NCBI GenBank assembly: GCA_020629755.1
Contig: JAHDCS010000011.1
Coordinates: forward strand, 1-50,679
Source of the DNA: Flavobacteriales bacterium
GTDB taxonomy: Bacteria; Bacteroidota; Bacteroidia; Flavobacteriales_G; JALEGO01
Reading direction: 5' to 3'
DNA length: 50,679 nt
Part shown: piece by piece, positions 4,494 through 48,509 of the stretch
How the letters are laid out: each line of letters opens with the position of its first letter
Position numbering within the stretch: the first letter of the stretch is position 1
Translations under genes and position numbers: made by a program
Notes under the pieces: generated by a model
Told to the model about the DNA's origin: nothing
Database searches by the model: none
Seen by the model: only the letters and a program-made list of their open reading frames with translations

Positions 4494-6572
4494 TCACTCT
4501 TGATACAAAATCACATTGCCTGATCGAAGCTCTCCAATGACTCTAAATTCGGTTCGTCTGTTCTCAGCTCGCCCATCCGGATTGTCGGTGCCATCTGAGT
4601 ATGTATTGGGTGCTATAGGTCTTTTTTCGCCATAGCCCATAGCTTTAAGTCTTTTTTTAGAAATCCCTTTTTTAATTAAATATGTTTTTACACTTTCTGC
4701 GCGTTTTTGAGAAAGATTAAGATTGTACTTATTAGATCCCAAATTGTCTGTATGCGAAGAGAGCTCAACAATCATTAAAGGGTTTTCTTCTAATGTTTTA
4801 TAAAGTGTTGAATCGAGTCTTTTTTTTGAATCATCTGTAAGATGATGATCGTCAAATGGGTAATATATGTTTTTGATCACAATAGGGTCTAATGTCATTT
4901 CGGTAAGTCCTATATGTTCTCTAATCTCAGTAGAGGAGTTGCTTGTATTTATATAATGGTGTTTGTTAAAAAAACCGTCTTTTTTTACCAATAACTTATA
5001 GCGTTTATCAGGGTGGATTTTAAATACAATTTCACCTTTGTTAGTGGTTTGAACAGAATCTGAAAGTACAGGAATGTCATTGCCTTTTAATTGGTATAAA
5101 TAGACCTTTTGATTTTTGATTAGATGCTTGTTGCTTTCTAAAGTTTGCATTTTTTTGACTTCATCCTCCATCTCAATAATCCGCTCAACTTCAGAGGCAT
5201 TTGAAAGTGTAGCGGTATAGTCTATACGCAGTTCATCTTCTAATACAAAAAAGAATATATCATCACAGCAATTTTTATTTTTGAGGTATAAGGCTTCATC
5301 TCTATTCGAAACAAACACCCCTTCGCTTTTATCAAATGGAGAAATTGAAAAATACAATTCGTCATACGAAGAGTTTAATGGGTAAGGCATGTGTTCAGGC
5401 AATTCCCAAGAGTGATTTGAAAAAGTGGTTTTAAAAATATCTAATCCCCCCAAACCTTCCCATCCATTAGAGCTAAAGTATAAGGCATTAGATTGATTAT
5501 TGTAAAATGGACTTAGCTCATCGTTTGAGGTATTGATATTTGCACCAAGATTTATAAAATCAGAGATTGAGTCGTTTTGAAAAGAGATATTTGCAGACCA
5601 TATGTCTTTATTGCCCTTGCCTTCTTTTCTCTCAGACACAAAAAACAAAACGTCTTTATCAGCGTCGCTCTTTACACCAGGATGTGTGGAACTTACGTTT
5701 TCTATATTTACCGGAGCTGCTAGTTTCACAGCATCACTCCAGCTATTATTTTCTTTACGTGTGAGGTGAATATGACATATAAATTGCCCTTTATTTTGCT
5801 GACACTTTGTAAAGTAAAAGCGCGTTTGGTCTTTGTTGAAGCACCCGTTTCCTAAATCAAATAGGCTGTCATTAACGGGCATAGGCGAAGGTTTAGAGCC
5901 TTCCCAGTTGTTCCCTACTTTTTCTGCTAGAAAAAAGCTTCTTTTTTTGGGGCTTTTTTGATCTGTGTCGTAATAGTTTATTTTCTCTTCTTGGAATGAG
6001 GCGTAAAGCATTTTTTCTTTACTCATAAAAATAGGAGAAAGCTCCATGTGGGGCTTGTTAATGGTAGAGTTCAGGTGCCGGATATGAATTTTTTCTTCTT
6101 GATGCGTTTTGTGAATATCAAGCGCAACAATACATCCTTTTTTTTCTATATGAGCTTGATTAACTAGATATTCGAGTTGGCCGTCTTGTTGGTAAGCGTC
6201 AATAAACTGAGTAAATAAATCAGCAGATGTTTTATATTTTCCGATTTGTTTTTGCATCAATGCATGATAAAATAGAGCCTCTTTAATAGGCTTTTCACTT
6301 CTGTATGTTTTTTCATACCATTCTGAAGCATTTCGGTAGTCTTTATTTAATCGATAATACTGAGCTAATTGATACGCCGCATCTAAATCTTTAGGTTTTA
6401 CCGCACAATATTTAAACATATAATCTGATGCTGAAAAAAAATCGTTTAGTTCAGCGTACTGCAATGCCATATGTTTTAATTGCGCAGCATTAGTGGCCTC
6501 AATATCTTGAGCGTTTGAGCCTATTGAATAGGCAAAAAAAAGCATAAATATGATGAGCTTACATGCGTACAC
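4494..6572 (-). CDS. OmpA-family protein with TPR and PD40 propeller repeats (type IX secretion/motility accessory, PorE-like layout)
   Basis: The 692-residue protein has a signal peptide (cut near SNAQ, residue 22). TPR-like helices follow at about residues 25-140 (AAQLKHMALQYAELNDF, LAQYYRLNKDYRNASEWYEK). Next come PD40/WD40-like propeller blades (about 165-430, for example LYFSSNGWEGLGGLDIF), a short beta domain, and a C-terminal OmpA peptidoglycan-binding domain (about 560-680, IYYPFDDHHLTDDSKKRLD, SSHTDNLGSNKYN, AENRRTEF). The order TPR, propeller, OmpA matches proteins that anchor type IX outer-membrane parts to the cell wall. The first codons overlap the porP-like gene by 14 bp, so the two are translated together. 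It need not be the core PorE; many genomes have several paralogues tied to individual cargoes. Confidence 0.8.
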   Translation of the reverse strand: MYACKLIIFMLFFAYSIGSNAQDIEATNAAQLKHMALQYAELNDFFSASDYMFKYCAVKPKDLDAAYQLAQYYRLNKDYRNASEWYEKTYRSEKPIKEALFYHALMQKQIGKYKTSADLFTQFIDAYQQDGQLEYLVNQAHIEKKGCIVALDIHKTHQEEKIHIRHLNSTINKPHMELSPIFMSKEKMLYASFQEEKINYYDTDQKSPKKRSFFLAEKVGNNWEGSKPSPMPVNDSLFDLGNGCFNKDQTRFYFTKCQQNKGQFICHIHLTRKENNSWSDAVKLAAPVNIENVSSTHPGVKSDADKDVLFFVSERKEGKGNKDIWSANISFQNDSISDFINLGANINTSNDELSPFYNNQSNALYFSSNGWEGLGGLDIFKTTFSNHSWELPEHMPYPLNSSYDELYFSISPFDKSEGVFVSNRDEALYLKNKNCCDDIFFFVLEDELRIDYTATLSNASEVERIIEMEDEVKKMQTLESNKHLIKNQKVYLYQLKGNDIPVLSDSVQTTNKGEIVFKIHPDKRYKLLVKKDGFFNKHHYINTSNSSTEIREHIGLTEMTLDPIVIKNIYYPFDDHHLTDDSKKRLDSTLYKTLEENPLMIVELSSHTDNLGSNKYNLNLSQKRAESVKTYLIKKGISKKRLKAMGYGEKRPIAPNTYSDGTDNPDGRAENRRTEFRVIGELRSGNVILYQE

Positions 6573-46239: not shown

Positions 46240-46788
46240 ATGGAAGACTATAAAAAAATACTAGCCATAAGCGGAAAGCCTGGGCTTTTCAAATTGGTTG
46301 GGCAAATGAAAAATGGCATTGTAGCTGAGGCCTTATCTGACAAAAAACGGTTTCCGGTGTATATGTCTGAAAACACATCTTCATTAGAAGACATTAGTAT
46401 TTACACAGAAGAAGGAGAGGTGCCGCTTAAAGAAGTGCTTGAAAAGATGCACAAGCATTTTTCTGGAAAAGCACATGCGATTTCTATGAAAGACGCAAAA
46501 AAAGTAACGGATGCCTTTTCTAAAATATTGCCTAAATACGATAAAGAGAGAGTATACACCTCAGACATTAAGAAGGTATTGAGGTGGTATAATACTCTTA
46601 TTGAAGCAGATCTTTTGATTTTAGAGACCAAAACAAAAAAGAAATCAGATAAAAAAGAGGCTGACACTACTAAAGAGGCAACCACAAAAAAATCAACTGC
46701 TGCAAAAAAGAAAAATCCGCCTAAAAAAGTAAATACAAAAGTGCAGAGTAAAAAAACGGGTGCAGTTAAAACACCTGTAAAGAAATAA
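46240..46788 (+). CDS. DUF5606 family protein with Lys-rich tail
   Basis: The 182-residue protein opens MEDYKKILAISGKPGLFKLV and continues LSDKKRFPVYMSENTSSLEDISIYTEEGEVPL and VRVYTSDIKKVLRWYNTL-like helices, the pattern of the DUF5606 family that is limited to Bacteroidota. The last 45 residues are mainly Lys, Thr, Ala and Ser (KKKSDKKEADTTKEATTKKS, then more), a disordered, nucleic-acid-binding-like tail similar to histone H1-type tails. The role of DUF5606 is not known. It is followed 6 bp later by the M3 peptidase start region. Confidence 0.85.
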   Translation: MEDYKKILAISGKPGLFKLVGQMKNGIVAEALSDKKRFPVYMSENTSSLEDISIYTEEGEVPLKEVLEKMHKHFSGKAHAISMKDAKKVTDAFSKILPKYDKERVYTSDIKKVLRWYNTLIEADLLILETKTKKKSDKKEADTTKEATTKKSTAAKKKNPPKKVNTKVQSKKTGAVKTPVKK

Positions 46789-46794
46789 AACGGC

Positions 46795-48509
46795 ATGTCA
46801 AAATCCCCCCTAAAAAAAAAAGAACCTACCTTCCTGAAGATTTTCAAATAGCGTCATGGGAAGCGCTACAACCGTATTTTGATCGGCTCGAATCTTTTCA
46901 GCTAAACTCTATTGAAGAGATAAACAAGTGGCTTGGTGAAAAAAGTGAGCTTGATTCATTCTTAGAAGAAGATATGGCCTGGCGCTATATTTTAATGAAT
47001 TTAGACACCACTGACCAAGAAAAAGCCAACAGCTTTCAATTCTTTGCTACTGAAATTGAGCCAAAAATAAGCCCCATTGCCAATAGGCTGAATACAAAAT
47101 TGAATCAATCGAAAGCGAAACACTTCTTAGGCGATGATTATAAAGTATTTTTAAGATCTGTTGCTACAGCGATAGAATTGTTCAGAGAAGAAAATGTGCC
47201 TCTTTTTTCTGAGCTTCAGGTAAAAGCACAAGAATATGGGGCCATTAGTTCAAAAATGACTATAGAGCATGGAGGTAAAGAGCTTACTTTACAACGCGCT
47301 TCCCTTTTGTTAAAAGAAAACGACCGCTCGCTGCGCGAGGCTATTTATAAAAAAATAAGCGCACGTAGAGCTCAAGATTCTCAACAGCTACAAAGCTTGT
47401 TTGATAAGCTCCGCTCGCTGCGCCATAAGGTAGCCTTAAATACGGGGTTTCAAAATTATAGAGATTATAAATTCAAAGCCATGAACCGCTTTGATTACAC
47501 CACTCAAGATTGTGAAGATTTTCACGCGTCTATCAGCGAAGTAGTGACGCCGTTTTTGGCTGAATTTGCAAAGGATCGACAACAAAAAATGGGTTTAGAG
47601 CGCTTAAAGCCCTGGGATTTGTCTGTTGATCCAGAAGGTTTAGCGCCTTTAAAACCTTTTGATACCGCAGAAGAGCTTGTAGAGAAGAGCATAGAAGTAG
47701 CACAAAAAATAGATAAAGATTTTGGCGATTGTTTAACTATGATGCGTGATTCGGGCCATTTAGATTTGGCCTCCAAACAAGGAAAGGCACCTGGCGGATT
47801 TAATTACCCTTTATTTGAATCAGGCCTCCCATTTATTTACATGAATGCTGTGGGGGCTAATCGCGATTTGGTGACCATGATGCACGAAGGGGGGCACGCG
47901 CTTCATTCGTATCTCACAAAAGATTTGCCAATTTCAGATTTAAAGAGTTTTCCGAGCGAAGTGGCCGAGTTGGCCTCTATGAGCATGGAACTGATCTCAA
48001 TGGATCATTGGGATGTGTTTTACACCAATAAAAACGATTTAAAGCGTGCTAAAAAAGAGCAGCTTAAAGGCGTTATTTCAGGATTGCCTTGGATTGCCCT
48101 AGTCGATAAATTTCAGCACTATTTGTACGAAAATCAGAGCTCTAGTGTAGAAGAGCGCAATGCCTACTGGGAGAGTCAACTGCCTTTATTTAGTTCTAAT
48201 GCGGTAGATTTTTCGGGCTTTGAAAATAATAGAAAAGAAAGTTGGCTCAGACAATTGCATATTTTTGAAGTGCCGTTCTACTACATTGAATATGGCTTTG
48301 CACAACTAGGTGCCGTAGCGGTTTGGAAGAATTACAAAGAAAACCCTTCACAAGCCTTAAAAGACTACAAATCGGCCTTATCGCTTGGCGGCACACGCTC
48401 TATTCCTGAGATTTACAAAGCAGCAGGCATCAGGTTTAAATTTGATAAACCATATGTGAAGTCTCTTATGGATTTTGTAGCTAAAGAGCTTAAAGCCTTA
48501 GAGGGGTAA
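46795..48509 (+). CDS. M3-family oligoendopeptidase (PepF-like) with frame break at the start
   Basis: The catalytic part is clear: VTMMHEGGHALHSYL (HExxH zinc site) with the third ligand Glu in FPSEVAELASMSMELIS, and the usual helical N-domain. An ATG at 46974 would give 511 residues. However, the same frame stays open upstream to 46770 and encodes a family-like N-terminus (IPPKKKRTYLPEDFQIASWE, then ALQPYFDRLESFQLN). No ATG, GTG or TTG precedes that stretch. ATG 46795 is in the next frame and would run into it after a C6 and an A10 tract (46805-46810, 46812-46821). One extra base in a homopolymer, or a -1 slip there, gives MSK.PPKKKRTYLPEDF and about 570 residues, the normal length. The coordinates therefore include a frameshift. 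Confidence 0.8.

Follow-up and report, generated by a model that had tools for sequence, protein, structure and literature searches.

The window, the whole 50,679-nucleotide stretch of DNA that was analysed, carries a gene for an M3 family oligoendopeptidase whose start codon lies in a different frame from the conserved N-terminus that follows it. The features of the locus are:

46240–46788, + strand: gene for a DUF5606/DUF6852 protein with a Lys-rich tail (Pfam PF18347 and PF21186)
46795–46797, + strand: ATG at which the M3 gene starts, read in the frame from which a shift is required (aligned with an ATG in both relatives, G001 and G002)
46795–46851, + strand: unshifted 18-codon ORF, with the translated product MSKSPLKKKEPTFLKIFK and then a stop
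46803–46810, − strand: one copy of the octamer GGGGGGAT (ATCCCCCC on the + strand), absent from the G001 and G002 orthologues
46812–46821, + strand: putatively slippery A10 tract encoding the KKK of LKKKR (A10 in G001, A11 in G002)
46821–46973, + strand: 51 codons of conserved M3 N-terminus, read in the shifted frame and lacking a start codon
46821–48509, + strand: M3 family oligoendopeptidase (TIGR02289), the full-length frame past the shift (profile, alignment and Foldseek)
46974–46976, + strand: first ATG in the M3 frame; its Met is internal, falls midway along a predicted helix and is not a conserved start
47883–47897, + strand: intact HEGGH zinc-binding motif (invariant columns H361–H365)

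Six bases separate the stop codon of the DUF5606/DUF6852 gene from the ATG at 46795, and this gene order is kept in G001 and G002. Read directly, the ATG is followed by TCA AAA TCC CCC CTA and then by the A10 tract, with ATCCCCCC at 46803–46810 and a T at 46811; the ten A's at 46812–46821 include the last A of CTA. The frame break sits at this homopolymer, which belongs to the class of at least nine A's. Adding one base at the tract gives a translation beginning MSKSPLKKKRTYLPEDF, a full-length M3 product of 571 aa. The M3 frame is open in the 5′ direction as far as a stop shortly before the tract and in the 3′ direction to 48509, and within the window it contains no ATG, GTG or TTG start before 46974. 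This layout is exactly that of a preliminary description, which had placed the M3 N-terminus out of frame at a C6/A10 junction with the ATG at 46795 one frame off; its count of about 58 residues before the internal Met needs correcting to the 51 codons between the tract and that Met.

The identity of the gene is supported by a full-length profile match, the zinc motif and the family fold, all of which mark it as an M3 oligoendopeptidase resembling Pz peptidase A. The product with its N-terminal segment scores 522 bits against TIGR02289 (cut-off 442) over profile positions 1–549 of 549, while without the segment the score is 503 bits and the match begins at position 41 rather than 1; the segment is therefore real, as had been proposed, and is coded without a start of its own. 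An AlphaFold2 model of the full-length protein (mean pLDDT 92) matches Pz peptidase A (3AHM) in Foldseek with a TM-score of 0.92 over 559 alignment columns, and the N-terminal segment is thus an ordinary part of the fold. It contributes to helices at residues 19–31 and 37–67, and the internal Met is residue 58, within the second of these, where pLDDT is 93–97. A predicted tryptic peptide of the M3 product, TYLPEDFQIASWEALQPYFDR, comes from the segment that precedes the internal Met.

A second species shares the A10 defect

Orthologues were gathered from whole genomes and genome contigs, and a search for further members of the family gave four genomes, including that of the window. The one other species of the genus compared, a Flavobacteriales MAG (G001; L002/L029), has 62% protein identity, and its gene reads ATG GCA CAG GCT GAA TT followed by A10 and GAAGT. 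The A10 lies at the matching site, the one-base defect is identical and the ATG is again in the wrong frame. The orthologue from the sister genus (G002; L003/L030) carries A11, and its frame is unbroken: ATG...TTA AAA AAA AAA AGA. In alignment the ATG takes the same place in all three genomes, just past the stop of the 5′ gene, and when one A is added to the window and to G001 all three read LKKKR followed by [TS][YF]L. The tract lengths across the three species, each represented by one consensus, are A10, A10 and A11. Comparison with relatives had been put forward as a check in the preliminary description, and it finds the defect shared within the genus and the A11 form intact outside it.

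There are several features of the wider family that bear on where translation starts. First, none of the other Bacteroidota orthologues examined has such a break, and those listed have an in-frame start codon at or near the family start and no A tract longer than eight in the start region, leaving aside a few contig-edge, partial or distant matches that are uninformative for this comparison. Second, orthologues starting at the internal Met were also looked for, as a finding that would speak against a displaced N-terminus; among those listed there is none, and the Met itself is present in G001 and G002. Third, no alternative ATG, GTG or TTG serves the M3 frame in G001, where a TGA and then an ATT stand directly before the tract, and the ATT is the only conceivable upstream start. 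Initiation at a non-canonical codon at or just 5′ of the tract would use this ATT, or ATA or ATC codons that lie in frame in the window, and AUU starts are known for infC. Neither the position nor the codon is conserved, however, in contrast to the out-of-frame ATG, which G002 shares, and we regard such initiation as highly improbable.

In each of the three genomes LKKKR is coded by an uninterrupted A tract, for which codon usage gives a joint chance of about 0.002 (a post hoc calculation), and synonymous sites have diverged among these genomes. None of the nine KKK triplets in genes of the window is spelled AAA AAA AAA. On these sequences, the unbroken A coding hints at a tract that is maintained.

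Constraint on the N-terminal segment and the context of long A tracts

Across the 51 codons from the tract to the internal Met, the window and G001 are 45% identical, compared with 63% for the remainder of the protein, and N-termini in this M3 family are less conserved in general. Because NG86 is saturated for the rest of the gene, constraint was judged from codon-position differences, a comparison across the family and a simulation of drift. Under simulated drift (5000 runs) the mean identity falls to 16% with a maximum of 35%, and the frame stays open in 2.7% of runs. In the comparison of 88 sequences the window N-terminus lies on the regression line (z = −0.18), and that of G001 is low (z = −2.57), yet clearly homologous; the low value fits some relaxation. 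R7, S48, E49 and E56 are invariant in 30 orthologues, and the codon for Arg7 uses the last A of the tract. This coding constraint is found on the 3′ side of the break; the 5′ side comprises 5–8 codons, few and variable. Such conservation shows that translation of the segment went on for the greater part of the period since the two species diverged, and a recent loss of an A in each is still compatible with it.

These data bear on the suggestion of a true deletion, in which the product would start at 46974. The ATG at this position does open a 511-aa ORF and its Met is shared with G001 and G002, such that the gene could encode a shortened 511-residue enzyme or be a young pseudogene. However, the segment 5′ of the internal Met is conserved, no orthologue examined starts at this Met, and a start here would fall inside a confidently modelled helix. 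Decay is likewise at odds with the intact remainder of the gene, HEGGH site included. We consider shortening or decay very unlikely.

Long A tracts are scarce in the DNA around the gene. A/T runs of at least nine number three in the window against about 21.5 expected from a second-order model, while runs of up to eight match the expectation of that model, a clear length threshold. Depletion of A/T runs of nine or more is what is expected where slippage matters (PMC1088944).

The genomes as a whole contain 20 exact A10 tracts in the case of the window genome and 11 in G001, and the survey of frame breaks took in these and some tracts of A11 or longer. Among ORFs of 150 codons or more in the window genome, about nine run through an A10, or terminate at one, in frame; two genes are broken, the M3 gene and an arginine-decarboxylase-like gene. 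In G001 about four ORFs of this size are clear cases in frame, and M3 alone is clearly broken. If A runs were systematically miscalled, most genes with an A10 would be broken, and since most are intact there is no sign of it.

A sequencing or assembly error, with a true tract of A11 in one or both genomes, was among the explanations first offered. Homopolymers are the commonest site of sequencing error, and both genomes appear to be draft assemblies, of 92 and about 90 contigs. Nonetheless the two species would have to carry the same error, identical in sign, other A10 ORFs are in frame in both assemblies and the second break in the window genome is opposite in sign, and we judge this explanation to be improbable.

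The arginine-decarboxylase-like gene (L129:906–2292, on contig C50 of the window genome) is split into two frames at a ATCCCCCC-A10 junction, with the tract at 1279–1288. It has one base too many, the sign opposite to that of the M3 break, and its G001 orthologue (L168) is intact; the break therefore arose independently, perhaps through a recent mutation. At L140:1501–1529 (contig C14, 12038–12066, in the same genome) a stretch of 29 A's lies near a contig end and is possibly an assembly edge artefact.

Proposed slippage at the A tract and its alternatives

The arrangement at the M3 gene is probably best explained by a slippery A10 near the start, conserved within the genus, from which the full-length enzyme would be made by transcriptional slippage (+1 A) or by −1 ribosomal slippage. 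According to this proposal the gene has been maintained with a frame one base short at the A tract, a state that most simply predates the split between the two species of the genus. Translation would begin at the ATG at 46795 and most transcripts would yield just the 18-residue peptide, while in a fraction RNA polymerase would slip on the tract, converting A10 to A11 and giving the 571-residue enzyme. Alternatively the ribosome may slip −1 on A AAA AAA AAA, giving the same protein and leaving the two agents indistinguishable by sequence. The preliminary description had listed slippage of both kinds among its options, and slippage on the A tract is the one that fits best. We infer that slippage occurs and with what efficiency, as well as RNA polymerase over the ribosome as its main agent.

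Several observations are relevant to that agent. A slippery heptamer, A_AAA_AAA, is present in the zero frame (CTA AAA AAA AAA G), and −1 ribosomal frameshifting is described at A_AAA_AAA and A_AAA_AAG (PMC3711429, PMC4066793). However, there is no stable RNA structure 3′ of the tract in the window (z = 0.35), the downstream folds of G001 (z = −2.72) and G002 (z = −1.72) differ from that of the window, and no stimulatory structure is common to the three. Nothing here thus points to a classical stimulated ribosomal frameshift, and we do not favor a programmed event of that type; the run is also long enough for RNA polymerase to slip. Transcriptional slippage is favored because single-base additions make up most transcription insertions and occur chiefly in homopolymers (PMC5574713). 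The same study counsels caution, as no correction of frameshifted genes was detected in its Buchnera data.

The main rival of slippage is a recent or phase-variable change in the tract, in which replication slippage flips a hypermutable run between A11 (on) and A10 (off) and both samples happen to be A10. Tracts of this length are mutable, the sister genus has A11, and the decarboxylase gene, whose frame is broken where C6 meets A10 but whole in G001, indicates that tract indels do occur in the lineage. A mutation that flipped the tract between A10 and A11 would leave conservation equal to that observed, and it counts against slippage that the defect is carried by two species only. Set against phase variation are the finding that both sampled species sit in the same off state, the nature of the gene, which encodes a housekeeping-type cytosolic peptidase and not a surface or modification function, and the other genic A10 tracts, which are mostly in frame. 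On balance it seems rather unlikely.

The slippage reading has precedents, and rescue of frameshifted genes at poly-A is already known. The closest is tssM1 of Citrobacter rodentium, a chromosomal gene likewise broken beside an A run (A11), in which about 20% frameshifting and mRNAs with 10–15 A's have been described (PMC4256274), and gain of an A in the mRNA restores the full-length protein. The tssM1 shift requires no ribosomal stimulators, and the M3 tract is likewise without a shared downstream structure. Unlike the M3 tract, which lies at about codon 7 and has an 18-residue unshifted product, that of tssM1 lies deep within the coding sequence, and the gene's two products each have a function; moreover, slippage in tssM1 has been measured, whereas in M3 we infer it.

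Transcriptional slippage also rescues poly-A/T frameshifts in Blochmannia and Buchnera, as recounted in PMC3017870 with reference to Tamas et al. 2008 and Wernegreen et al. These are, like the M3 break, single-base poly-A frameshifts conserved between species with the rest of the gene undecayed, but they occur in AT-rich reduced endosymbionts with many such tracts, whereas the M3 host has a 2.4 Mb Flavobacteriales genome whose window is strongly depleted in A/T runs of nine or more. In dnaX of Thermus and Chlorobi, slippage occurs at A9/A10, including tracts of 10 A's (PMC1088944, PMC3711429), a similar length to the M3 tract, and variable A numbers in the mRNA set the frame; there, unlike in M3, the slip comes late in the gene and makes two useful subunits. 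No paper linking an oligoendopeptidase to transcriptional slippage was found. The novelty lies in the gene, in the lineage (a Flavobacteriales genome of 2.4 Mb with few long A/T runs in the window) and in how early the tract comes, near codon 7, leaving only a short peptide as the unshifted product.

If the slippage reading is true, annotation pipelines would label a functional enzyme as truncated or as a pseudogene, and slippage would let a genome without strong reduction tolerate a long-lived frameshift. Whether the tract further acts as a start-proximal poly-A gate across the genus, its length setting the fraction of transcripts that encode M3 as a maintained control, is a speculative extension to which we give only a modest chance. 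Were it so, slippage would control the expression of a housekeeping enzyme in an organism that is not a reduced endosymbiont and in a gene that is not part of a mobile element. The in-frame A11 form of the sister genus offers a natural test between A10 slippage as a tolerated defect and as a maintained control.

The octamer beside the tract

The C6 tract is part of one copy of GGGGGGAT, and the octamer had been raised as a possible unstable element. That suggestion does not hold for the M3 break, as the sister species is broken alike without the octamer or a C-run. A shift within C6 is also the less likely placement for a second reason: the Leu before KKK is common to the three genomes if the shift lies in the A tract.

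The octamer is nonetheless abundant in the window genome, where it has 732 copies (367 and 365 on the two strands) and its reversed string 75; the other species of the genus has only 11 octamer copies. Within the window it is found at 5444, 9029, 10772, 10808, 16265 and 13 other positions. It is often preceded by a T-run and represents a species-specific, genome-wide motif expansion. Three of the 20 A10 tracts of the window genome lie 0–2 bases past ATCCCCCC, against about 0.01 expected by simple multiplication, an excess that follows from the T-runs preceding the octamer. It could be an uptake-, Chi- or HIP1-like motif.
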